A stretch of 36,463 bases of DNA from a virus (IMGVR_UViG_3300048091_000082:1-36463); one strand, 5' to 3'; counted from the first letter of the stretch, positions 3,526 through 36,463 are shown. Notes: generated from the sequence alone by a model not told the origin. Translations and numbers: made by a program.

Positions 3526-6472
3526 TGCGCACCCCCTTGATGCAAATGTTGTAAGTGAGCTTCGGGACGGTGATGAACGTCACCGTCCAGCGGTAGCCGT
3601 CAAACGTGGTGGTGTAGTCGAAAGTGCCGCCCTCGCGCATGACCAGGCCTTGCACGGTCACGCCGCCGTCCACCGGCTGGTAGCCGTACGGCAGCACGAA
3701 TGCGGCAGTGGTGCCGTCGCCGGTGAACCAGAACGGCGTCGGGATCTGGCCAGTGGCGCGCGCTGCCTCGGCCTTGCGTTTCAGTTCGTCGCGCAGGGTC
3801 AGCGCCGGCTGTGCATAGCGCCCGGCCGATGCGCCGCCGCTGATGTGCGCACCGCTACCTGCCGCGATGCTGGTCAGTGCGCCGATGGTGGTGGCGCCGC
3901 TTTCGATGCGCACCAGTCCGTGCAGCGCGCTGCGCCCCCAGCTGGTGCCGGCATGCAGCAGTTCGGTGCTGTCGTCGTAGGCGAGCGCGGTGACGGCGCT
4001 GCTGGTGCCATCCAGCGTGCATTGCGCGCCGGGCTGGAACAGGGCCAGTTCGTCGCGGTAGATTTGAGCGATCTGGTCGGCACTGGGCGCGCTGGCCGAC
4101 GCGCGAACCAGCGTCACGCTGCCGCTGTCGAAGCCCCCGGTGTGGTATTGGCCAATGCGCGTTGTCGCGGTCGTGTTTGTGAGGTTGGTCGTGTCGCTGG
4201 CACGCGACGCTGCCAACACCCCGTTGACCCACAGTTCAACCGTGCCGGAGCGGCGCAGCAGCGTGATGTGGCTCCACGTATTAGGCGCGATGCCGCCCGC
4301 CGAGAGGGACGAGTTATAGCCGGTCGCCGACACGTAGGCGATCACGTTGCCGGACGATCCTCCTGCGGCCAGCGCAATCGTTGGCCCCAAGGTTGATGGC
4401 GTCGAGCGGCTGAAGATCGGCGCGCCATTGGACGCTGTGGATGGCGTGTAGGCCCACCCCATCACGCAGAAGTCGCCAGTACCAAAATCCAGATCGCTGT
4501 TGTACGGCTGCTCAAGGAAGTTGGTCGCGCTGAACCCGCTGTAGCCAACAAGCTGAGAGCCAGCAGCGACCGCAGCCTTGGTCAGACTGCCGTTGACGGT
4601 CAGCGGCTTCGCTTTGACGCTGCGATCATCAACAGCAAGCTGCACCTGAATGTTGTCTAGGTAGAGTGCCTCTCCAGAGCCGCCCAAAACAAAAGCCCCG
4701 AAATAGCAGGTCGTTGCGCTAGCAACAAAACTGATCGAACTTGTCGAGTGTGTAGTGGTGAACGTAATTGCTTTTGCCGAGAGGTTGGTGCCACCATTGT
4801 AGATGCCTGTCGAGACATGGAAATTCGACGATGCACTAGCACTGGAGGCATTCTTTCCCGAGAAAGTTATCGTATAAGAGCGGCCTACCGTTAGTCCAGA
4901 CAACGGAAGAGCTGAGTAAAAATTCGACCCCACAATGGAAGTCAGAGCAACGGCCCCCGTACCACCTACACCATTAGTTGCATCCCAAGTGCTTGTTGCA
5001 CTCGCTTGAGAAGTCCAACTTCCCTTAGTAGCAGAATAATTAGCATCATCCCCCGTTAGCAGGTTAGCCCCACTTACAGTCTCTACAACAGTGTCAGCTA
5101 GGTATGCCCCACGAATGTCGCCCACCATCCAGCCGGTGTTGTAGGCGTTGCTGATAAGCGCCTGCATCGACTTGGCATAACTGGCCGGATTCGGTTTGAA
5201 CAAAATCAGTGGGTTCACTCCACCATTGCTCTGGCCGAAAGCGTACTGGTTACGCAGCGCGACTTGATTGACCAGTACGCCTGTTGTCGCGTCTTCGCCA
5301 AGGCGAGCCGGAATGGTCCCTTTAGAATAAACAAAGTCGGAGGTGTTATCCGGAGAGGTTGTCGGCAGACTATTCTTGAACCACACCCTGCAGTTGACAG
5401 AGATACCGCCAACAGCGCACAAGCGCCCTTGGCTGTCGATACTTACTGAGTAAATGCCACCGACATTTGTGATCCAGTTGTACACCGTACCGTCACTCTT
5501 GATGACACTCACCCCGCCCGCTGTCGCCACCGCAATCGTCGGGACCGGCAGGCCCGTAGCGGGATCAGCCGGGGCGCCGGGCAGGACGGTGGCGGCAACA
5601 TCGTTGACGGAACTGGACACGATGGATGCGAGACTGCCGGTTACGACACCCGCAGCGGAATTTCGGAACGAGATTTGAGCAGGCGTCAGATACCCTGAAC
5701 CTGAAGCCCCGTTCGTCCGTTGCCAGGCCCGGTCTGCGGCAAAATCATACCCAAGCACTTCTCCAGTGGCCCCGGTATTACTTCCGACGATCACGGTTCC
5801 GTTAAGCGCGGCGACGGAGGTCGCCGAAGTCCAGCCGCGATTCGTCGCGCCGCGCACCAACACCATCCACATCGGTGCGCCAGGCTTGGTCAGGTCGTAG
5901 ATGATGACCCGGCCAGTCTCGGCAATGATGGCCGACAGTGCCGGGAACTCGCGGCTGCTGCCACGGAAGACTTCGGTAAAAGTACCAGCGCCTACTGTGC
6001 TGACAACCTTATAGAACTTGCCGTCCGATGTATATTGGAAGTAGTCGCCCGGCACCCCACCAGCAGCCGCAATCGCAGTTCCCGAACCCGTCGCCTGTTG
6101 CCCTAACCATTTGCCGGTCTGGATCGCTTCGGTGTACCAGCTGGTGTGCTGGCAGCGCTTGATCCACGCTCCGCCGTCGCTGTCTTTGGCGACGTCATAC
6201 AGGAGCGCCTTGACGATCGCGCCGGAATGGATGGACTGCGAGAATGCCGCCAGCTGCTCGGCCGGGGCGGTGCTGGCCTGCCAGGCTGCGATCGCTGCGT
6301 CACGCGAAGCACCGGCCGCGGTCGCGCTGCCAGCCGCCAGGGAAGCCGATGCGGCTGCGGCCACACCCGCGCCCAACGCGGTAGCGCTCGACTGCTGCAT
6401 GTCGTCGTCCAGCTGGTTCAATGCCTGCATCGCCACGACTGGCGGCATGTTGTAGTAAAACCGTTTGCCCAT
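3518..6472 (-). CDS. Large receptor-binding tail fibre or tailspike with LamG-like domain
   Basis: The protein has 984 residues. The N-terminal part (about 1-160) is alanine-rich and helical and probably attaches to the tail. A middle part (about 160-460) has short beta repeats. Residues about 465-612 resemble a carbohydrate-binding jelly-roll (LYLDNIQVQL at its end). Residues about 648-808 read as a LamG/concanavalin-like domain (GTGDFCVMGW, NTWSHITLL, VELWVNGVL). The C-terminal part ends in YNICIKGVRNG. DNA coding for the sugar-binding-like part (about 4640-5460) is visibly richer in A/T than the flanks, as expected of an exchanged host-range domain. The start ATG overlaps the previous stop by one base. 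Confidence 0.75.
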   Translation of the reverse strand: MGKRFYYNMPPVVAMQALNQLDDDMQQSSATALGAGVAAAASASLAAGSATAAGASRDAAIAAWQASTAPAEQLAAFSQSIHSGAIVKALLYDVAKDSDGGAWIKRCQHTSWYTEAIQTGKWLGQQATGSGTAIAAAGGVPGDYFQYTSDGKFYKVVSTVGAGTFTEVFRGSSREFPALSAIIAETGRVIIYDLTKPGAPMWMVLVRGATNRGWTSATSVAALNGTVIVGSNTGATGEVLGYDFAADRAWQRTNGASGSGYLTPAQISFRNSAAGVVTGSLASIVSSSVNDVAATVLPGAPADPATGLPVPTIAVATAGGVSVIKSDGTVYNWITNVGGIYSVSIDSQGRLCAVGGISVNCRVWFKNSLPTTSPDNTSDFVYSKGTIPARLGEDATTGVLVNQVALRNQYAFGQSNGGVNPLILFKPNPASYAKSMQALISNAYNTGWMVGDIRGAYLADTVVETVSGANLLTGDDANYSATKGSWTSQASATSTWDATNGVGGTGAVALTSIVGSNFYSALPLSGLTVGRSYTITFSGKNASSASASSNFHVSTGIYNGGTNLSAKAITFTTTHSTSSISFVASATTCYFGAFVLGGSGEALYLDNIQVQLAVDDRSVKAKPLTVNGSLTKAAVAAGSQLVGYSGFSATNFLEQPYNSDLDFGTGDFCVMGWAYTPSTASNGAPIFSRSTPSTLGPTIALAAGGSSGNVIAYVSATGYNSSLSAGGIAPNTWSHITLLRRSGTVELWVNGVLAASRASDTTNLTNTTATTRIGQYHTGGFDSGSVTLVRASASAPSADQIAQIYRDELALFQPGAQCTLDGTSSAVTALAYDDSTELLHAGTSWGRSALHGLVRIESGATTIGALTSIAAGSGAHISGGASAGRYAQPALTLRDELKRKAEAARATGQIPTPFWFTGDGTTAAFVLPYGYQPVDGGVTVQGLVMREGGTFDYTTTFDGYRWTVTFITVPKLTYNICIKGVRNG

Positions 6473-10890: not shown

Positions 10891-13800
10891 TGTGGGTTCA
10901 CCCTTGTCTCACGTGTTTGCCCGGCAGCCTTGATCGCATCCGCCGCAGCGGCAGCAACCTTCTCCGCGTTGCTGCTGGAGGCTGCAGCCAGCGCCTGCAT
11001 CAAGTCGCCGGTCTGTTCGGCTGCATCGGCACGCAGCCCCTCAACCTGGTCCTTGAGTGCCTGGTTATCGGCGGTCAGTTTCTTGATCGCTTCCACCAGC
11101 GGGACCATGTTCGACGTGCCCATTGCGCTGTAATCGATCGGCGCCGCCATCAGCGCAGTCCCGGCCGGGCTGCGGTACTCGTCGCTCTGGCTAATCGCCT
11201 TCGCGATATCGCCGATGGACATACCGTCGGACAGGCGCTGCTGCCAGAACTGCGTGCCTGCAGCGTCCGGCGCGCGGCCGAGCATTTCCTCGTACAGCGA
11301 CTGGATCGCGCTCGACTGCGACTGCTGCAGCGCAGCCGAGCCGGATCCGCCCATCGCCTCGGCCAGCGCGTCGATCGCCTCGGTCACGGTCAACACCGCG
11401 TCCTTGACATCGACAAGCCCGTCCACCTGGGCATTCAAGGCTTCGAGGCTCGCTTGTGCGATATCGACCTGCTGCGACGCCCAATCGATCGCCTCTTCCG
11501 TGGCGGCCTGGGCGTACGCAAAGTCGCGCTGGTATTGATCCCCGCTCGCATTGGCCACTTGCGACGCCTGCAGGAAGGCGGTATAGGCCTCCTGGTAGTG
11601 CGCCTGGGCTTCGGTGTCGCCACCCCGGGCGTCGGCCAGCGTGCGCTCGTACTGCGACTTCGCCTCGGCATACTTCTCCTGCGGCGTCAGCGGCGACAGC
11701 GAGCCGAGCAGCGTGCTGTCGTGCAGGTGGCGCAGGTTGGTAGCGAACGAAGACATCTGATCGCTGGTCGCCTTAATCGCGTCCTGCTCGCGCTGATAGG
11801 CCTCCGTCAGCGCAGCCCGGGCGCCGGATACGGTGGTGATCGCGTCAGCCGTATCTGCCAGCTCCGGATGCAGCTCGGCGAACGCATGCTCAACGCTGAG
11901 CAGCATCGCCACATTACTGGCGCCAGCATCGCCCAGCTTCATCTGCGCCTCGAACAGCGCGCGGAATTCGGCGCGCGTCGCCGGCATCTGCAATGCCGCC
12001 TTCTTGAACGCTTCCTCGAGCTGGCCGGACATCGCGACCGCCTTCTCGCCTTCGCTGTAGAAGTCGTCGTAATAGGTGCCCGCGCTCGCGGCCAGCGCGT
12101 CGATGCCACCAGCCGCTGCGATCAGCTTGGATACGGCCGAATCGCTCAGGTCCGCGAAGCCGGCCAGGTGCTGCCCCATCAGCGTCAGCGCGCTTTGCGT
12201 GGCGTTGATCGCGTCGACGGTCTTGGCCAGGTCGTCGAGCGCCGGCGCGTCGCCCAGGTCGTCGAGCATCTTCGTGGCCCAGCCGGGCAGCCCGATCTGG
12301 TCCAGCGCCGTGCGCACAGACTTGCTCACCTCGGCCAGGTACTGCTGCTGCCCGGCCTCACCGTCGGCGAAGACCTTGGGCGCCCACGGGCCGTTGCCGC
12401 GCGCATCCTGCCAGTCGAGCACCTTCTGCGGGCCGAACTGCCCATCGCCCTGTTTGTTGATCACCAGGCCGCCCCACGCGCCATCCTTCGACGAGTCGTC
12501 GGCAAACGCCGTGGCCACCGCGTAGCCAGCCTTCTGGCCGAACGAGCTTGCGGTGCTGTCCAGGATCGAGGCGATGCTCGATGCGACGCCAGACACGAAC
12601 TTCTCGGTGTCGGCAGAGGTGGCGGTCTTCTCGAAGTGCAGCGACTCGGCCGCGATGACCGAGGTGTGACCGTACGACGATTCCGCAGCGCCGCCGGTGT
12701 GCGGCGTGCCGGAATGGTCGAGCGACTTGGACAGGGCATACAGGGCCGCTACACCAAGCGCGATCGGGCCCAGGGCGCCAGCAGCCATGCCAAGGCCGGA
12801 CATCGCGCCAGCGGCCGTGCCGGTGCCGATCAGCGAGCCGGCAGCGCCGAGCGAACCGGCGAGCGTGGTCGATCCCGTCAGCCAACCGGCGCCGGCCAGC
12901 ATCGAACCACTCAAGCCACCGGCGCCGAACATCGTGCCCAGCGCCGCGCCGGCCATCGATCCGCCAGCGCTCGACGCCCCGCTCATCGCCGCGCCGGTAG
13001 CCATGCCGCTCATGCCGGTACTGGATACGGAGGCGCCAATGTCGATGATCCACTGCTTGACCGTGATCTGGTACAGCAGGTCGTACAAGCCATTCTTCAG
13101 CGTGTCCTCGAGCCGGTCGAAGGCGCTCTTGCCGCTGTCGAAGATCGACACGAACGTATCGTGCGCGGTCTGGTCGATCGAGGCCCACATCTGCTTGTCC
13201 GCATCGAGCTGCGGCTTGAGCAGCTGGTTGCGATACCAGATGTCGTATTGCGTCTGCAGGGCCTTCTGTGCGTCCGTGCCGTCGCCGGCAAGCTGGATGC
13301 GCTCTTGCCAGGTCTCGGCGTCGATCCGCAGCAGCGCGGCCGCGCGGTCCTTGTCGTCGAAGATGGCTTCCGCGCCGAAGCGCTTGTTTTCCTCGGCCAG
13401 CTGGTAGGCATAGCCGAGCGCTTTGGTCTGCGCGAGCGTGGCCTGTTCGACCTCAGTGCGCATCTCGCTCTCAGCGCGCAGCTGCGCGATCTGCTCGTCG
13501 GTGATCGGCTTGCCGGATCGGCGCACGTCGAACAGGTACTTCTCGAGCGCAGCCTCATTCTTGACCTTCACCATCGCGATCTCGCGCGCATCGGCCGACT
13601 TGCCGTAGAGGGCGTATTCGGCCGCCAGCGCATCGTTCGCAGCATTGCGCGCCTGGGCGCTCTGCTGCATCTGGTCGAGCACTTCCTTTTCCATCTGGCG
13701 GGCTTTGATGTTCTGCTCGATCGCATCCCACTCCGCGAGCATCACATCGACCGCATCCCGCTGATCGGCGGTCAGCTTCACCTTCCCTGCAGCCAGCTCC

Positions 13801-27391: not shown

Positions 27392-30130
27392 TTAACCCTC
27401 CATACCCGCGCCCCCGCGATGCCGGTATGCCCGCAACTCGGTCTCGAACACCGAGCTGGCGGCTTCGGCCCACTCGCGCAGGCTCTTGCCGGGCGGGTGC
27501 TCGCCCACCAGGAACACGAGCCGCTGCTTCACCTTTTCCCCGTACTCGTACAGGATGGGTTTCTTGTGCAGCGTCGCGCCGGCATATCGCTCGACGGTTG
27601 GGCTGAACAAGGTCAGCGAGGTGTACTTCGATTCGCCCGATCGGTTGCACCACACTTGGAAGGCGTCGTACAGCTGCTGCACGCCGCAGGTGATGAACGG
27701 CAGCGGCAGCAGGCCCTTCGACCAATCGCGGTAGAAGCGCTCAGCCGGCGCCAGGCTCTTTTCAATGAGGTTGTCCTTCGCCTCGTTGTACAGGGGCTTG
27801 GTGTGCTCGTTGAAGTCGCCCATGTCCAGTTCGTGCATGAGGAAGTGATAGAAGGCCTCGATGCCGCCAGCCTTGATCTCGTCAGCCACGCCGATGTAGA
27901 ACTCGCGGGTCAGTGCCGGCGGCGTCCACACCACCAGGTAGCGCCGGTCCGTCTTGTCCAGGGCGAGCGGTTGCAGTTCGTTGGACAGGAACACGAAGTT
28001 CATCTGGTTCGCTTCGCTGTGCTCGGGCAGGCCCTTCGGGTTGACGATGACCGTGTCGCCCGATACCAGGTACTTGAGCTTGCCCTTCATCTGCTTGAGC
28101 TCGGCCCGCGTGACCACCTCGTCGGCCACCATGAACAGCTTCATGGATGCCCAGTCGTTGAAGTTCGACTCCAGCTGGGCATTGCCGATCACGTAGCCGT
28201 ACTCGCCGTAGATGGCCTTGACCACCTTCTCGAAGAAGAAGTTTTTGCCCGATCCCTCGTCGCCGTGCATGATGATCGAGGTCTCCATCTTCGCGCCCGG
28301 GTTGCGCAGCGGGTAGGCGAGCCAGCGCAGGATCCACGTCTCAAGGTCGGCGTTGCCATCGCACAGGTGGTACAGCAGCACGCGGATCTGCATGCAGTTG
28401 CCCTTCTTGGGCTTCATCTTCCAGCCGCTGAACAGGTTGACCGTCGCGGTCGGGCCGCTCTCGGCCGGGCTGGGCGTCTCCGTCGGGTCGAACACGATGT
28501 TCTTCTTGAGCACCCACTTTCGCGAATCACCGGACCAGAACTTCATCACGTCGTTGTTCGCCACGATCATGCGCATGGCCGATATCTTCATCAGCATGCG
28601 CTGCCGGCGGTCCCACACCAGGTCTTCGCCGTAGATCAGGACAAAGTTGTCGAGCGTGTCTCCGACGGCGTCCCAGTGCGCCTGCCCGTATTCCTTTTTC
28701 GGCTTTTCCTTCTTGCGCGACTCGTCCGGCGCGCCCCCCTCCCCCGGCGCGGAGCGGACGCCGGTCGTTTCCGACTTCGCCATCGAGCCTGCACCTTCGT
28801 ATGCGCCGACGTTCGACTGCGCGTCGAACTGCTTGGCGAGTTCCACCGGCAGCTCGTCTGTCGCGCTCGCGCGCGGCTGCTCCGCACCAGGGGGCGGGGG
28901 GGATTCCGCTGTTGGCTTGGGGCCGGGGGCAGCTGCCTGCGGCTCTGGCCCCGCCTCCGCTGGAGAGGGTGCGGGAGAACCGGTTTTGCGCTGCTCCGCA
29001 GCGAGGATGGCAAACCCGATCTGCGCCGCCACTTTCTCGAGCCCCTCCTCGACATGGAGGTCGTTGAAGTCGGTCAGCTTGCGCCCGGCGCGGTCGGCGA
29101 ACAGCGGCTTTACAACGGACGCGTTGCCCACGGCCTTTGCCGCAGCGTGGCAGCTGGCCACGCCGGCGTTCTTGTACGTGTACTGGCGCACCAGGCGGCC
29201 CCGGCGCATGTCGGCCTCGATGTACTCGATTCCCTGCGGGTCCACGCGCCACCACGCGGTTACCTCGACCGCTTCATCATCGTCAGCGACAACGCGATGG
29301 GTGACGCCGTCGATCGGCACCGAGGCGGAGACCTTGAATTCCTCGCGCAAGCGCTCGGTGAATCGTTGCGTCAACAGGTAATCGTCGTCCGAGAGAAAAA
29401 GCAGATGTGCCTCGGGGTGATCGCGCCGCAGCGACTTGGCCACGTTCATGATGTTGCCCGCGTTGAGCGCAACTGCGGCCGGCAAATCGTAGCCAGGGGC
29501 GACACTGAACCGCGCACTGGCGCACGTCGCGTAGCCCTCGCCCACCGCAATGATCGGCGCCCCGGCCGGCGTGCCCAGGACGTGCATGACGCCGATCGCG
29601 TCCATGTCCTGGTTCAGCTTCTTCCCGCCCTCGGGGTCGATCTTCTGCAAGCCCATCAAGCGCCCATCGCGCACCAGCGGGATCAGCAGCAGGCCAGCGG
29701 GGCTAACGCGCACGCCCTCGGCCGGCACCTGCTTGCGCACCAGGTACGGGTGACCACCGGCGTCGTCCGAGCCCTTCGACCACTGATCGCGCGCCCGGCC
29801 AGCCGCCAGCCGGATCGCGGTGTCGCGCTTTTCCTGCTCGGCCTTCTCGGTCGCGCGCTGTTGGCGAGCGTACTCGGCCAGGTCTTCTTCGGACATTTCC
29901 TCCATGTCCACCGTGACCGGAACCGTGTTGCGGTTTTCGCCCTGGAAGAAACCAAACGCGCCAGTAACGACCGTGCGGCCCGACTTCAGCTTCATTTCGC
30001 GGAGGATGTACCACGCCTTCTTTTGAGGGCCAAAGCGCTTGTATTTGCCGTCGAGGATCGGGTGATTCGGCGGCAGCTGGGGCATATCGTAAGCGACCAT
30101 CTGTGCTACTACTTGACCAACGTCGCTCAT
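27392..30130 (-). CDS. TOPRIM primase / SF3-type helicase (DUF5906-like)
   Basis: The 912-residue protein should start and unwind phage replication. The front half has a TOPRIM fold (IIAVGEGYATCASARFS, 193-209, and LLFLSDDDYLL, 243-253). A disordered Pro-rich linker covers about 385-420. The C-terminal half is a hexameric-helicase-like ATPase: Walker A GDEGSGKN (623-630), Walker B LFMVADEV with Asp670/Glu671, and a polar/arginine motif KTDRRYLVV (Arg729/730). It lies beside the iteron region and is coupled by ATGA to the gene upstream. A truncated copy of its helicase domain lies at 35346. Confidence 0.93.
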   Translation of the reverse strand: MSDVGQVVAQMVAYDMPQLPPNHPILDGKYKRFGPQKKAWYILREMKLKSGRTVVTGAFGFFQGENRNTVPVTVDMEEMSEEDLAEYARQQRATEKAEQEKRDTAIRLAAGRARDQWSKGSDDAGGHPYLVRKQVPAEGVRVSPAGLLLIPLVRDGRLMGLQKIDPEGGKKLNQDMDAIGVMHVLGTPAGAPIIAVGEGYATCASARFSVAPGYDLPAAVALNAGNIMNVAKSLRRDHPEAHLLFLSDDDYLLTQRFTERLREEFKVSASVPIDGVTHRVVADDDEAVEVTAWWRVDPQGIEYIEADMRRGRLVRQYTYKNAGVASCHAAAKAVGNASVVKPLFADRAGRKLTDFNDLHVEEGLEKVAAQIGFAILAAEQRKTGSPAPSPAEAGPEPQAAAPGPKPTAESPPPPGAEQPRASATDELPVELAKQFDAQSNVGAYEGAGSMAKSETTGVRSAPGEGGAPDESRKKEKPKKEYGQAHWDAVGDTLDNFVLIYGEDLVWDRRQRMLMKISAMRMIVANNDVMKFWSGDSRKWVLKKNIVFDPTETPSPAESGPTATVNLFSGWKMKPKKGNCMQIRVLLYHLCDGNADLETWILRWLAYPLRNPGAKMETSIIMHGDEGSGKNFFFEKVVKAIYGEYGYVIGNAQLESNFNDWASMKLFMVADEVVTRAELKQMKGKLKYLVSGDTVIVNPKGLPEHSEANQMNFVFLSNELQPLALDKTDRRYLVVWTPPALTREFYIGVADEIKAGGIEAFYHFLMHELDMGDFNEHTKPLYNEAKDNLIEKSLAPAERFYRDWSKGLLPLPFITCGVQQLYDAFQVWCNRSGESKYTSLTLFSPTVERYAGATLHKKPILYEYGEKVKQRLVFLVGEHPPGKSLREWAEAASSVFETELRAYRHRGGAGMEG

Positions 30131-31333: not shown

Positions 31334-31362
31334 ATATTACTAAACGGTAATGGCAGCGTCAA
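31334..31362 (-). promoter_or_regulatory. Early promoter (PR-like)
   Basis: On the minus strand TTGACG (31362-31357), a 17-bp spacer and TAATAT (31339-31334) form a near-consensus sigma-70 promoter. Operator O1 overlaps the -10 box and spacer. The transcript start falls at about the A of the cro-like ATG. Confidence 0.85.
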
Positions 31363-31391
31363 CACTGTTTGGTGATTTACTTGAAAGTAAT
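31336..31391. promoter_or_regulatory. Switch-region operators O1-O3
   Basis: Three 16-bp sites of the form ATTAC-N6-GTAAT lie between the divergent repressor genes. O1 is ATTACTAAACGGTAAT (31336-31351), O2 is AACACTGTTTGGTGAT (31361-31376), and O3 is TTTACTTGAAAGTAAT (31376-31391). O1 and O2 are 25 bp apart centre to centre. O1 overlaps the early -10 box. O2 overlaps the -35 box. They should bind the CI-like and Cro-like proteins. Confidence 0.75.
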
Positions 31392-31410
31392 TACCGATGA
31401 CAATTCGCGA

Positions 31411-32097
31411 ATGACAATCCAAGACATTCGTCGGGCGCGACTGGCGCAATTGATCCGAGAGCGCTACGACGACTCTCAGGCGTCGTTTGTGTCACAGACC
31501 GGTGAGAACCAGAGTGAGGTGTCTGGCCTGCTCAAATCGAAATCGTTCGGGGAGAAGAAAGCTCGTAAGCTCGAGGAAAAATGCGGCCTTCCAACTGGAT
31601 GGCTGGATACATCGGACGAGCAACCTGATGTGCCGAAAGGCTTCCAGTCCGTCGCTGTCGCCGATACAAGCGATCAACGATATGTGGAAATTCCAAAGGT
31701 AATGCTGCGGCTGTCAGCGGGCATAACAGGATTTGAAACCGAACCGGAGAATTTCGACGGGTCAGCGCTGACAGTTCCCCGCCAGTGGATCGAGCGCAAA
31801 GGGTATGACCCGCGCCGGCTAGTAGCCATCAAGATCCGCGGCGAGAGTATGGAAACCACTCTGTACGAAGATGACGTCGTCGTCATCAATACAGCCGACA
31901 CGCGCCCGGTCGACGGCGAAGTATTCGCGGTCAACTACGAGGGCGAGGCAGTCGTGAAACGGCTAGTACGTGACGCGGGGTCTTGGTGGCTCGCGTCCGA
32001 TAACCCCGACCAGCGGAAATACCATCGGAAAATTTGCCGAGGGTCGTCATGCATAATCGTTGGTAAGCTCGTGCGCCGCGAGAGCGACCGTGCGTAG
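31411..32097 (+). CDS. CI-like S24 repressor (LexA-type self-cleaving)
   Basis: The 228-residue repressor keeps the prophage silent. The N-terminal DNA-binding domain covers about 1-65 (LIRERYDDSQASFVSQTGEN). The C-terminal peptidase domain has a presumed cleavage site Ala103-Gly104 (RLSAGITGF), nucleophile Ser146 (RGESMETT) and Lys183 (AVVKRL); the Ser-Lys distance of 37 is that of LexA. RecA-stimulated self-cleavage after DNA damage is expected, as for the family. I choose ATG 31411, which overlaps the stop of a five-codon leader frame at 31397; TTG 31369 is an unlikely longer start. Confidence 0.93.
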   Translation: MTIQDIRRARLAQLIRERYDDSQASFVSQTGENQSEVSGLLKSKSFGEKKARKLEEKCGLPTGWLDTSDEQPDVPKGFQSVAVADTSDQRYVEIPKVMLRLSAGITGFETEPENFDGSALTVPRQWIERKGYDPRRLVAIKIRGESMETTLYEDDVVVINTADTRPVDGEVFAVNYEGEAVVKRLVRDAGSWWLASDNPDQRKYHRKICRGSSCIIVGKLVRRESDRA

Positions 32098-32672: not shown

Positions 32673-32696
32673 AACCCCGTAACCGGGGTTTTTTTT
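32673..32696 (+). terminator. Terminator of the cI operon
   Basis: AACCCCG-TAAC-CGGGGTT is followed by eight T on the plus strand. It ends the repressor/zinc-ribbon transcript and insulates it from the second promoter 42 bases downstream. Confidence 0.9.
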
Positions 32697-32723: not shown

Positions 32724-32764
32724 ATTACCATTTGGTGTTGACACCCAAATTACCGTTTAGTAAT
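32724..32764. promoter_or_regulatory. Second operator pair O4/O5
   Basis: O5, ATTACCGTTTAGTAAT (32749-32764), is the exact reverse complement of O1. O4, ATTACCATTTGGTGTT (32724-32739), resembles O2 in reverse. The centre spacing of 25 bp is the same as between O1 and O2. The pair covers the promoter of the parB operon. Confidence 0.85.
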
Positions 32765-32766
32765 AT
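32738..32766 (+). promoter_or_regulatory. Second repressor-controlled promoter, for the parB operon
   Basis: TTGACA (32738-32743), a 17-bp spacer and TAATAT (32761-32766) form a strong sigma-70 promoter, with O5 over the spacer and -10 box and O4 just before the -35 box. It reads to the right, into five closely spaced genes. The first ATG lies about 26 bases after the expected transcript start. Confidence 0.88.
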
Positions 32767-32798: not shown

Positions 32799-32942
32799 AT
32801 GAACAACTTTACGGTCACAGTCCGCACCGAGAGCGGGCAACTCACCTTCACGCTCCAATCGGCCTCAAGCATAGACGCGTTCATTGAGGCCGCAGACCGC
32901 TTCAGTTCGCAGCCCTGCGGGATCTCCGTGAGACTCGGATGA
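32799..32942 (+). CDS. 47-residue protein at the head of the parB operon
   Basis: A small frame of 47 codons starts at ATG 32799 after GGGTGG, and its TGA overlaps the start of the next gene (ATGA). The protein has a beta-type front (MNNFTVTVRTESGQLTFTL) and a helical middle (SIDAFIEAADRF), and ends CGISVRLG. The promoter, ribosome site and coupling make it a real gene rather than chance. Its function is unknown; it may be a small regulator or binding partner. Confidence 0.7.
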   Translation: MNNFTVTVRTESGQLTFTLQSASSIDAFIEAADRFSSQPCGISVRLG

Positions 32943-33280
32943 GCACAGCCACCGCGACCCGCAATCCCACTGCCCGCGCCCGCACCACGCCGCCCGGCAC
33001 TGGCCACCTGCACCAGGCGCTCGAGGACTCACGCGACCGGGCCCAGCTGGCGCAGTTCTGCAGTGCACACGTCTGCACGCCGGCAGAGGTTTCCAGCGAC
33101 GGCAAGCGGATCGACATGCTGCGCGTGCTCGACTTGATGCGCGCTCGCGGCTACGAGATCTCGGCGCCGGCACGCGCACACCATCAGCCAATAAAGGGCT
33201 CGACCAAATGGCTGGCACACGTACGCCTTCCCACTGGCCCGAGCTTTGACATGGGCTTCTACACCCCGAATACGCCGTAA
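32939..33280 (+). CDS. 113-residue protein of unknown function, parB operon
   Basis: The basic protein has a Thr/Arg/Pro-rich, probably disordered front (1-22), a helical part (HLHQALEDSRDRAQLAQFC), then RIDMLRVLDLMRARGYEISA and an extended basic end (GSTKWLAHVRLPTGPSFDM). The middle part could be a small wHTH, since it has the order helix-turn-helix then WLAHV strand, but it is not recognised. It contains copy D of the palindrome in codons that read CSAHVCT. It is joined by overlap to the 47-codon gene. Confidence 0.72.
   Translation: MSTATATRNPTARARTTPPGTGHLHQALEDSRDRAQLAQFCSAHVCTPAEVSSDGKRIDMLRVLDLMRARGYEISAPARAHHQPIKGSTKWLAHVRLPTGPSFDMGFYTPNTP
33063..33078. repeat. Dispersed palindrome, copy D
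   Basis: GTGCACACGTCTGCAC has one mismatch to the perfect palindrome and is identical to copy C read on the other strand; the two share GCAGTGCACACGTCTGCAC (19 bases). It lies inside the 113-codon gene, about 300 bases downstream of the second promoter. Confidence 0.85.
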
Positions 33281-33321: not shown

Positions 33322-35349
33322 ATGACCAAGAAAACCCCAGCTGTGTCCGCCGCAGCGGTTGCAGAGCAGCTCGCGCAGGACGGCGGTATCTACGGCCAGT
33401 ACGAACTTGCCAAGATCAGGATCTCGCCGGACAACCGCAAGCGTTTCAACGAACAGGCGCTGCAGGAGCTGGCCGCCAGTATCACGTCGGTCGGTGTCGC
33501 TCAACCGATCCTGATCCGCCCAGTCGACCCGACGCCGGATGCGCCGGAGGAGTTCGAAATCGTTGCCGGCGAGCGCCGCTATCGCGCATCCAAGATCGCC
33601 GGCAAGGAAACGATTCCCGCGCTGTGCCGCAATCTCAGTAATCTCGATGCGGCCAAGCTGCGCATCCTGGAAAACCTGCAGCGCGAGGATCCGCATCCGA
33701 TGGAGGAGGCCGAGGGCTACCAGCTGCTCATGCTGCAGCACGGCTTCTCTGCCGACCAATTGGCCGACGAGGTCAAGAAGAGTAAGGCCTACGTGTACGG
33801 GCGCCTCAAGCTGTGCGCGCTCGCTCCCGAGGCACGCGAACCGTTTCTCAATAACGAGATCTCGGCGTCGATCGCCCTGCTAATCGCTCGCATCCCGGCG
33901 CCGAAGCTGCAGGTTCAGGCACTCAACGAAGTGCTAAGACCTTCCTATGGCGAGCCGCTCTCGTATCGTGCGGCCGCCACCCATATTCAGCAACGTTACA
34001 TGCTGGACCTGCGGCACGCCGTCTTCAAGATCGAGGACGCGAAATTGCTCAAGAGCGCGGGCGCCTGCGCGTCTTGCCCCAAACGGGCGGGGAATCAACC
34101 TGAGGTGTTCCAGGGTGTCGATGCAGACGTCTGCACGGATCCGGACTGCTACGCCGAGAAGAAGGCCGCCCACTACGCGGCAGTTACCGTTCAGGCCAAC
34201 AAGAAAGGAATTCCGGTCCATGAGGGGTCGGAAGGGCAAGAGATCCTGAGCGACAGCGCCGGTTGGCGCAACGGCGAATTGGTGCGCGCCGATTCCAGTC
34301 TTTGGCACTTCAAACGCAATGCCCCGGGCACGCGAAACAACGGCGAGGCAGAGGACTACCTCGACGACCAGACCATGCCGGCAGTGGTCGCCTACATCAA
34401 GTGCTCGAGCGGCGAAATGGTCGCGCTATACAAGCGCGTTGACGTGCAACGCGCGCTTGAGGCCGTCGGCGCATGCGAAACCGAAGAGGCGCATGCCGAG
34501 CGGATGCGCCAGGCTGAGACCGATCCTGCGAAAGCGAGTGCTGCTGACGAGAAGCACGCAGAGGCGCAGCGCAAAGAGGCGGAGCTTGAAAAGAAAGCCG
34601 CCGACCTGACCGCCTTCCGAGTGGCCGTGTACACCCGCATCCGCGAACACATGGCCGCCAACGGTTTGACCCTGCAATCCCTGCGGGAGATCACCAAGCT
34701 GGCGCTCGAGGGCGATCTCGGCCTCCCCTTCGAGCTGGCCCACCTCTACAGCTTCAATGTCAACAACCGGATCGAGACGGCGGCGCACATCGACCAGGCC
34801 AGCATGCCGGAAGTGCAGCTGCTGCTGATCGATGCCGTGCTGGGCTACACGCTCGGCGTCACAACTTGGGACATTAAGAACGGGAATGCCGACGAAGATG
34901 ACTTCGGCACGGTGATCGACATTGCGGCGCATGAGGGCATCGATTACAACCGCTTGCGCGAGGAACACTTCCCGATGCCGATCGACGCCGCAAACCTGCA
35001 AGCGGCCAACCTTGTCACGTTCATCAAGTCTGCCCCGCAGCGAATCAACGAGCTTAAGGACGTCGTCATTGCAGACCGCCCGGATCTGCTCTGCGCGTTC
35101 GAGGACGCAGCCAACAGCCTGGGGTTTGTGTACGGCCCGGGTGGTTTCCAAGTGCCTGAAGAGAAAGCCGAGGATCAGCATCCTGCAGCACAGCAGCCCG
35201 AGCAAGTGATGCCGACCGACGAAGCGCTGGCGCCACAGGAAGAACCGTCGGCCGCAGGCGAGGGAACACCCGAACCGGCACCGGCGGCAGCGGCCGCGAA
35301 GGCCAAGAGGAGCTCGAAGAAACCCACCAGGACGCAGGAGCCAGCATGA
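33322..35349 (+). CDS. ParB-like partition protein with zinc-binding-like insert
   Basis: The 675-residue protein has the ParB/RepB N-terminal domain, with the CTP-binding motifs GERRYRAS (83-90) and ENLQREDPHPMEEAEGY (117-133), a KorB/ParB helix-turn-helix (about 141-165, FSADQLADEVKKSKAYVYGR), then a Cys-rich segment (CASC at 249-252 and CTDPDC at 271-276) as seen in PRTRC-type ParB proteins. A helical part (about 380-430) and an acidic, Pro/Ala-rich end follow. No ParA is visible in the window. It is far longer than chromosomal ParB (about 280-300). A ribosome site AGGAG precedes ATG 33322. Copy E of the palindrome lies in its own coding sequence. Confidence 0.92.
   Translation: MTKKTPAVSAAAVAEQLAQDGGIYGQYELAKIRISPDNRKRFNEQALQELAASITSVGVAQPILIRPVDPTPDAPEEFEIVAGERRYRASKIAGKETIPALCRNLSNLDAAKLRILENLQREDPHPMEEAEGYQLLMLQHGFSADQLADEVKKSKAYVYGRLKLCALAPEAREPFLNNEISASIALLIARIPAPKLQVQALNEVLRPSYGEPLSYRAAATHIQQRYMLDLRHAVFKIEDAKLLKSAGACASCPKRAGNQPEVFQGVDADVCTDPDCYAEKKAAHYAAVTVQANKKGIPVHEGSEGQEILSDSAGWRNGELVRADSSLWHFKRNAPGTRNNGEAEDYLDDQTMPAVVAYIKCSSGEMVALYKRVDVQRALEAVGACETEEAHAERMRQAETDPAKASAADEKHAEAQRKEAELEKKAADLTAFRVAVYTRIREHMAANGLTLQSLREITKLALEGDLGLPFELAHLYSFNVNNRIETAAHIDQASMPEVQLLLIDAVLGYTLGVTTWDIKNGNADEDDFGTVIDIAAHEGIDYNRLREEHFPMPIDAANLQAANLVTFIKSAPQRINELKDVVIADRPDLLCAFEDAANSLGFVYGPGGFQVPEEKAEDQHPAAQQPEQVMPTDEALAPQEEPSAAGEGTPEPAPAAAAAKAKRSSKKPTRTQEPA
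34121..34136. repeat. Dispersed palindrome, copy E
   Basis: ATGCAGACGTCTGCAC matches at 15 of 16 positions, with a perfect inner 14 bp. It lies inside parB, in the codons for ADVC of the cysteine-rich segment. It is about 1.06 kb from copy D. Confidence 0.85.
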
Positions 35350-36077
35350 AGAACCTTCTCCGCATCACAACGTTTATCCGCGGTGTCGCCACGATCATCT
35401 ACAGGGCATCGGGCTTCGGCGGTCTCGGCGCCCGCCGTCCGGTCGGCTGCAACAACATCTTGACCCTGCTGCTGCACGTGTGCGACATGGACGAACGCAT
35501 GCGGACGTGGATCCTGCGCTGGATCGCCTTCCAGCTCCGTAACCCGGGCGCGAAGATGCGCACAGGGCTGGTGATCAACGGGCAGCACTTCGGCAAGAGC
35601 GTGCTATTCAAGGACGTGCTTACCGAGCTGTTTGCCGGGCGCTCGGGCGTGATCACCGCCGACCAGCTGCACGACAAGTTCACCCGCTGGGCAATCGCAA
35701 CGCGGGCGCTGATCGTCGTTCATGGCACGTTCGCACCGCGGCATATCGCACGCCTGCGCGCCCTTGTGACGGCCGAAACATTCATCGTCGAGCGGCGCGG
35801 GACCGCACCGCAGGTGCGCCCGGCGCACCTGAATTTCGTCTTCCTGTCTGGCTCGAGTGAGTTCCTGCCGGAAGACGTTGGCAACCGGCGCTTTGCGGTC
35901 ATCGAGACACCGCCGGTGTGGCAGCGCAGCTTCCACGATGCCGTCCAGGATGAGATCAAGAATGGCGGTATCCAGGCGTTGTTCGACTATTTGGTGCGCG
36001 ATCTCGACATGGGCACCTTCAACGAAAGCACGCTGCCGCCGCTGCCGGCGCTGCTCAAACAACCGGAGGCTGCGTGA
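35346..36077 (+). CDS. Stand-alone, apparently inactive copy of the phage helicase domain
   Basis: The 243-residue protein aligns with residues about 565-785 of the primase-helicase at 27392. Both carry TWILRW(L/I)A..LRNPGAKM and NFVFLS, and both end with ADEIK/QDEIK...GGI.A...L...LDMG.FNE. Walker A has changed from GDEGSGKN to NGQHFGKS (first Gly lost), and the Walker B acids (ADE) have become VHG (126-127), so ATP hydrolysis should be lost. The arginine pair (181-182) remains. The start overlaps the parB stop (ATGA). It could be a dominant-negative partner of the helicase, a link between ParB and replication, or a decaying relic; its intact frame over 243 codons speaks against decay. Confidence 0.88.
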   Translation: MKNLLRITTFIRGVATIIYRASGFGGLGARRPVGCNNILTLLLHVCDMDERMRTWILRWIAFQLRNPGAKMRTGLVINGQHFGKSVLFKDVLTELFAGRSGVITADQLHDKFTRWAIATRALIVVHGTFAPRHIARLRALVTAETFIVERRGTAPQVRPAHLNFVFLSGSSEFLPEDVGNRRFAVIETPPVWQRSFHDAVQDEIKNGGIQALFDYLVRDLDMGTFNESTLPPLPALLKQPEAA

Positions 36078-36463
36078 TGGAAGCGATGGATTCGAAGTTC
36101 ACGTTCGTGGTTGACTCGCGGCCGGCCGTCCTTGGTGGCGGTTGGAAGCTGCGACTGCTCGAAGACGGCGCAGAGGTTGGCGGCGGCATCTACCCGGCCC
36201 AGGACGAAGCAGAGGCAATCGATGCCTATAACGATGCGATCGAGTTCGGGCAGACGTGGCTGGAAACGCGGGTGCCATCCGATGCTGACGCGCCGGCATC
36301 AGCGTGCACCTGCCCGCAACACACGCCAACGCTGGCCCTGCCCGCAACACACGCCAACGCTGGCCCTGCCCGCAACACACGCCAACGCTGGCCCTGCCCG
36401 CAACACACGCCAACGCTGGCCCTGCCCGCAACACACGCCAACGCTGGCCCTGCCCGCAACACA
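36077..36463 (+). CDS. Partial gene running into a 28-bp tandem repeat
   Basis: The frame starts at ATG 36077 (TGATG overlap with the previous stop, GGAGG 8 bases upstream) and stays open for 129 codons to the window end. The front (residues 1-75) looks like a small folded domain: FTFVVDSRPAVLGGGWKLRL, LEDGAEVGGGIYPAQDEAEA. From about codon 79 it enters the repeat, which encodes a Pro/Ala/Thr/His-rich, Cys-containing chain. Because the unit is not a multiple of three, the peptide repeats only every 28 residues. The 3' end is outside the window, and the function is unknown. Confidence 0.75.
   Translation, partial: MEAMDSKFTFVVDSRPAVLGGGWKLRLLEDGAEVGGGIYPAQDEAEAIDAYNDAIEFGQTWLETRVPSDADAPASACTCPQHTPTLALPATHANAGPARNTRQRWPCPQHTPTLALPATHANAGPARNT
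36310..36463. repeat. Perfect 28-bp tandem repeat, 5.5 copies to the window edge
   Basis: The unit starts CTGCCCGCAACACACGCCAA and is repeated without a single change at 36310, 36338, 36366, 36394 and 36422, with 14 further bases at 36450-36463. It has no spacers and no dyad symmetry. The number of copies beyond the edge is unknown. Confidence 0.95.

Follow-up and report, generated by a model that had tools for sequence, protein, structure and literature searches.

A gene located directly behind parB in a temperate phage genome encodes a stand-alone AAA+ core of the SF3/DUF5906 (NrS-1) type, 243 aa in length, which lacks the catalytic residues of related helicases. The reading that we favour, with a probability of about 0.45, is that this protein, hereafter called the short, is a pseudo-helicase, that is, an AAA+ protein without ATP hydrolysis that has been repurposed within the ParB operon and is not tailored to the phage's own helicase. 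No paper on a phage pseudo-helicase of this type, or on a dead stand-alone core of a replicative helicase, was found in the open-access literature.

The window, i.e. the whole stretch of DNA analysed, comes from IMG/VR, is 36,463 bases long and is assigned to the linear class; it represents a tailed temperate phage with genes for an HK97-type capsid, portal and terminase. The very end of the record (positions 36309–36463) consists of 5.5 perfect copies of a 28-bp tandem repeat, at which the assembly probably broke.

Gene layout, fold and termini of the stand-alone core

The short is encoded on the plus strand (35346–36077) in one operon with parB (33322–35349, plus strand) and a 113-aa gene, orf113 (32939–33280, plus strand), which most related loci also carry upstream of parB. 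The 675-aa product of parB was assigned to the ParB family by the ParB_N (E 6e-22), HTH_ParB (E 5.5e-12) and TIGR00180 (above cut-off) models; it also matches the PRTRC ParB and Noc models, both below cut-off. The two genes overlap by 4 bp (ATGA), the start codon of the short lying inside the parB stop, with an AGGAG-type ribosome site just 5' of it, and the reading frame, earlier described as intact, is indeed open over all 243 codons.

The short matches the DUF5906 Pfam model above cut-off (E 8.7e-9, 36.5 bits versus a cut-off of 27.6) and, weakly, the VapE-like profile PF05272 (E 5.6e-6). The phage encodes its own 912-aa primase-helicase on the minus strand (27392–30130; phrog_2249, E 7.5e-118; DUF5906, E 2.4e-19), in which Walker A, Walker B, sensor 1 and the arginine pair are intact. 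Residues 579–779 of this protein align with the short at 39% identity over 201 aa (E 2e-45), in agreement with the relationship to the primase-helicase ATPase claimed from the sequence alone. Homology is limited to the AAA+ core: the primase, head/collar and tail domains are absent, and the first approximately 34 residues of the short have no counterpart in the BLAST alignment with the helicase. An AlphaFold2 model built from a 69-row alignment (pLDDT 86) had as its best match among solved structures the NrS-1 helicase domain (Foldseek E 3.9e-12; Z 20.5 over 201 residues), followed by the SaPI5 primase-helicase, the ASFV primase-polymerase and poxvirus D5/E5.

The short resembles the DUF5906 helicase of the NrS-1 polymerase (PDB 6k9c, 6lrb) in fold, motif order, profile and the arginine pair Arg555/Arg556, but the NrS-1 protein has a Walker A of the form GKQGTGKG, NTPase and unwinding activities, and head, tail and polymerase domains, while the short is a core without the catalytic Glu and the sensor-1 Asn. 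With the phrog_2249 primase-helicases of this and related temperate phages it shares, besides the 39% core identity, a conserved block WxLRW.A..LRNPGAKM preceding the P-loop and another one following the arginine pair, but these proteins form a separate clade, are far longer (912 versus 243 aa) and have an intact active site in all 63 cores compared. The SaPI PriRep/VapE-type helicases (PDB 7ola, 7om0, 7pds; PF05272) belong to the same SF3 branch and share the fold (Z 15–16 for 7om0 and 7ola), but they are full-length proteins rather than stand-alone cores. They function as replication proteins.

Residues 2–22 of the short (35349–35411, plus strand) form a putative amphipathic and mostly basic helix, predicted at low confidence for residues 4–22 (pLDDT about 50). 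The amphipathic signal appears to be moderate in the family, with a hydrophobic-moment z of 1.94 for the window copy, a mean of 1.56 over 32 members, and values above 1.5 in 21 of these 32. At the opposite end, 33 of 34 shorts terminate in Ala (AA in 17 and VA in 10; ALAA in the loci L059 and L064). The terminal Ala could possibly serve as an ssrA-like/ClpXP-type degron, while common ancestry and the gene overlap are equally compatible sources of the pattern.

Active-site residues across the family

Residues of the active site were tabulated for 35 stand-alone proteins and 63 helicase cores. The catalytic Glu of Walker B, present in all 63 helicases, is absent from every short (31 Gly and four Asp), and the sensor-1 Asn, also found in 63 of 63 helicases, is retained in only four of the 35. 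By contrast with these positions, the Walker A Lys is present in 31 of 35 shorts (63/63 in helicases), and the two members of the arginine pair in 33 and 34 of 35 (63/63 in helicases). A pattern test found Walker A intact in 29 of the 35 shorts and missing in six, the window copy included; on the tree of the shorts this loss requires five changes. Residues W59, A61, H44, C46, G208 and F225 are invariant in the family.

In the window copy, the degenerate Walker A, NGQHFGKS (residues 78–85; 35577–35600, plus strand), has lost one residue and the middle Gly while retaining Lys and Ser, and the same one-residue deletion occurs in the sister short of locus L005. The sequence VHG (residues 125–127; 35718–35726, plus strand) stands in place of the Walker B motif ADE, so the Walker B Asp is also gone, whereas most relatives retain both Walker A and the Walker B Asp. 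The two degenerate motifs had been recognised from the sequence alone, as had the preserved arginine pair, R181–R182 (35886–35891, plus strand), which aligns with DRRY of the helicase and, via the helicase, with DRRF of NrS-1. In addition, the sensor-1 Asn has been lost, FLSN of the helicase having become FLSG (Gly169). The designation "Walker-dead" is appropriate for this copy but does not describe the family, since Walker A is intact in most relatives and the family-wide loss is that of the catalytic Glu.

In the model of NrS-1, Arg555 and Arg556, to which R181–R182 correspond, extend to the nucleotide of the adjacent subunit; mutation of either one decreased NTPase activity 7–15-fold and abolished visible unwinding (PMC7102993). 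Together with the residue table, this suggests that hydrolysis was lost first, while ATP binding and the trans-acting face have been mostly kept, and the losses predict that the whole family is hydrolysis-dead. One could propose instead that catalysis has moved to another residue and that the short is still an active ATPase, given that Walker A and the Walker B Asp persist in the majority of relatives and that four carry Asp at the position of the Glu; this we regard as extremely improbable, because the Glu and the sensor-1 Asn have been lost together in nearly all shorts, and the window copy has neither a full P-loop nor the Walker B Asp.

Eukaryotic AAA+ complexes provide well-known examples of pseudoenzyme subunits, and clamp-loader delta prime is a pseudo-ATPase AAA+ subunit that keeps its arginine finger. 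The short is similar to the delta prime type in having lost the catalytic residues acting in cis while keeping the arginine acting in trans, but subunits of that type belong to fixed hetero-oligomers with known partners, whereas the helicase encoded in the genome of the short varies.

Ancestry, selection and genomic linkage

Single-protein searches with the short revealed nothing close in viral_contigs, only helicases among phages and plasmids, and in genome_contigs a single relative, a helicase in a long open frame of 771 aa. A search with the upstream ParB yielded 34 viral loci, 16 of them with a similar stand-alone protein, and an alignment search enlarged the set of shorts to 35, including that of the window. 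Among 399 genomes from the order of the L003 genome no clear stand-alone copy was detected; nearly all matches were in long frames, and the sole short-frame match was cut at a contig end. The nearest relative found for the window short, 60% identical, is that of L005, a phage with a VapE-type helicase. Of the 26 parB-bearing loci with a visible downstream region, 16 carry the short and 10 do not, which makes it an accessory gene.

All 35 shorts and the helicases lie on opposite sides of one branch of the phylogenetic tree (SH-aLRT 99). The short is therefore an old lineage, and neither its description as a copy of the phage's own helicase nor a recent duplication of that helicase is compatible with this tree.

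The homologues might have been randomly broken, an outcome which the sequence-only reading had named as refuting its proposal, but all 35 frames are open, without internal stops down to about 30% identity, and the residue losses are selective. Pairwise dN/dS counts, in which codon bias in GC-rich genomes is ignored, gave 0.13–0.26 for close pairs with a parB-type neighbour or none and 0.36 for the window and L005 copies, so that the short is under purifying selection in close pairs; it evolves faster than the helicase. In the subgroup located beside a retroelement or a methylase, some pairs have values of 0.5–1.1, which may reflect either weak constraint or diversifying selection. The view that the short is a functionless decaying remnant could draw on these pairs with dN/dS near 1, on a Walker A that has been progressively lost along about five lineages and on the absence of the gene from many relatives. 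Random decay is nevertheless ruled out by the open frames, by the selectivity of the losses (Gly at the Glu position in 31 of 35, the arginine pair in 33–34 of 35, and six invariant residues) and by dN/dS of 0.13–0.36 in the other pairs; a remnant is thus highly improbable, and the short is probably a repurposed protein rather than a decayed copy.

A survey for ParB with ATPase-dead DUF5906 neighbours in other genomes, which had been suggested together with the proposed coupling of the protein to ParB, revealed 34 homologues in other phages, 24 of them directly behind parB. With the window included, 25 of 35 loci have parB directly upstream, and a single small gene often intervenes. Coupling is thus frequent but not obligatory: a strict form of it is ruled out by the 10 of 35 shorts without a known adjacent ParB, although one flank is missing from L055 and L063. 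In L046 and L048 the short is present and ParB is absent.

Whole-record searches identified three kinds of helicase in phages carrying the short, namely Toprim/DUF5906 (the window type), PriCT2/DUF5906 and VapE-type. Mapped on the tree of the shorts, helicase type requires 10 changes, compared with a mean of 12.9 after shuffling, and on the ParB tree 17 compared with 15.9. Five pairs of sister shorts (window/L005, L007/L015, L004/L013, L022/L029 and L056/L061) reside with different helicases. Evolutionary distances of the short and ParB are correlated over 24 phages (0.37; permutation 0.006) and more strongly among the nine phages with the window type of helicase (0.79; permutation 0.002), while in the same nine phages the correlation of the short with the helicase is 0.58 (permutation 0.033). 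In its inheritance, the short follows the ParB operon and not the helicase of the phage.

These data bear on the proposal, made from the sequence alone, that a dead subunit enters the ring of the phage's own primase-helicase and either slows this helicase or brings it to DNA bound by ParB. The trans position of the conserved arginine pair, the similarity of the short to the helicase core, a probable co-induction of the operon with the helicase genes, and the correlation of distances within one helicase type would all suit such a regulator or poison. The main argument against it comes from the helicase swaps, about 10 on the tree, by which closely related shorts adjoin three very different helicases, together with the closer tracking of ParB; moreover, head and tail domains are missing from the short. 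The case for its entering the helicase ring is thereby weakened, and such a role appears unlikely.

Various other genes were observed around the shorts. A gene of about 81–85 aa (10205–10450 in L008, and relatives) lies between parB and the short in many relatives and is missing in the window; the L008 copy had no Pfam match. In L004, a gene for an Rv2179c-like 3'-5' exoribonuclease (11266–12393) is located downstream of the short in the same direction. Diversity-generating retroelements are found beside the short in L054, L055, L059 and L064. That of L054 comprises a reverse transcriptase gene (4461–5912), a template repeat at about 4669–4780, and variable repeats at 3550–3657 and 4004–4112, in which mismatches occur almost only at template adenines (10 of 10 and 9 of 10, respectively). 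A C5-type cytosine methylase is encoded nearby in L090 and L063, that of L090 being assigned from its likeness to the one of L059.

In L053 and L085, both phage contigs, genes of a PRTRC-type cassette precede the short, and in L085 the PRTRC proteins A, C and E and ThiF all score above NCBIfam cut-offs. The ParB of the window matches PRTRC_parB (E 6.7e-36, below cut-off); the short does not belong to the PRTRC definition. ThiF or PRTRC A, C or E genes were not seen beside the window parB among the ORFs scanned, the window ending 0.4 kb past the short. The L053 record also encodes an unusual 915-aa fusion (L152, 8853–11600) with an N-terminus like that of the window primase, an FtsK gamma domain in the middle and a VapE-like helicase domain.

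Control of the parB operon and possible roles of the short

A gene for a CI-type repressor (31369–32097, plus strand; phrog_4 transcriptional repressor, E 1.4e-38) lies upstream of the parB operon. A promoter-like site, TTGACA-17-TAATAT, identified by consensus match (10/12), precedes orf113, parB and the short (32738–32766, plus strand), and its -10 element is covered by a repressor-type operator, ATTACCGTTTAGTAAT (32749–32764, plus strand). The identical 16-mer occurs as an inverted copy (31336–31351, minus strand) inside the leftward lytic promoter (31362–31334, TTGACG-17-TAATAT). Weaker operator-like copies accompany both, ATTACCATTTGGTGTT at the -35 element of the parB-operon promoter (32724–32739, plus strand) and another at the lytic promoter (31361–31376, plus strand). 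The six matches observed for the four operator sites were reached in none of 100 shuffles. The earlier claim of a second promoter under the lysogeny repressor is in line with this arrangement. The repressor transcript is separated from the operon by a terminator-like hairpin with a T-tract (32673–32690, plus strand), found by consensus match in a region where eight such sites occurred against 5.7 expected. Assignment to a lysogeny operon on account of the position downstream of cI is ruled out by this hairpin, the separate promoter and the shared operator.

The window operators thus serve two mirror-image promoters, and the same design, with different words, is observed in most relatives. Counting the window, 21 of 24 related loci have a word, matching at 15 or more of 17 positions, in common between their two promoter regions; several different words are used by related phages, and none of 20 shuffles was as good in most loci. 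That the words change between phages while their sharing persists indicates, as far as a repressor–operator link can be read from sequence repeats, that the operon is probably under the phage repressor and the short is probably made early in lytic growth.

An early accessory gene of this kind could be a weapon, supplying a dominant-negative SF3 subunit that cripples the helicases of competing phages or of satellites, the latter often using VapE/DUF5906-type helicases for replication. The accessory distribution, the fast evolution, the accessory-type neighbours (DNA methylase, retroelement, PRTRC), the dissimilarity between the short and the helicase of many carriers, and the conserved arginine pair are consistent with this idea. 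Yet the window phage, whose helicase is of the same kind, would risk poisoning itself, and the PADLOC defence models had no match to the short at E 0.01, i.e. no known defence family was recognised; on balance we give this explanation a low probability. The short might also act in counter-defence as a decoy that occupies either a sensor of the host or an inhibitor made by a satellite, directed against the SF3 helicases of phages. Its preserved surface and fold, its lost enzyme activity and the accessory, early character of its gene would suit such a role; no known sensor for helicases of this type was identified here, however, and we consider a decoy very unlikely.

According to the favoured pseudo-helicase reading, the AAA+ core of an SF3 helicase of the NrS-1/DUF5906 type would have become a stand-alone protein once, long ago, and would have lost ATP hydrolysis through replacement of the catalytic Glu, mostly by a fixed Gly, and disappearance of the sensor-1 Asn. 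The fold and the arginine pair that acts in trans would have been retained, as would a good P-loop in the majority of members. As an accessory member of a ParB-led operon, it would be switched on with the lytic programme. Via the conserved arginine-finger face it may self-assemble or dock on a partner, forming a non-hydrolysing scaffold, ATP-bound or, for the window copy, ATP-independent, which would work with the ParB module on phage DNA; the basic amphipathic N-terminal helix could contact membrane, DNA or protein. It would not be a subunit tailored to the phage's own helicase. Oligomerisation, timing and partner, as well as the function of the helix, are inferred. A more specific version, tentative and rather doubtful as a whole, is that the SF3 core has turned into a non-enzymatic self-assembling scaffold that acts early in lytic growth with a ParB-type DNA clamp having no evident ParA, for example holding or positioning phage DNA or blocking rival helicases; ATP binding would then be dispensable to a degree that allowed its loss on about five occasions.

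For phage gene clusters of this type, the findings suggest that the helicases of relatives should be checked before a ring partner is assumed. Members with an intact Walker A and members that have lost it form a natural series, through which the order of loss, hydrolysis followed by ATP binding with the arginine finger last, can be tested directly. If the short acts, it would represent a new kind of early phage control or an inter-element weapon.
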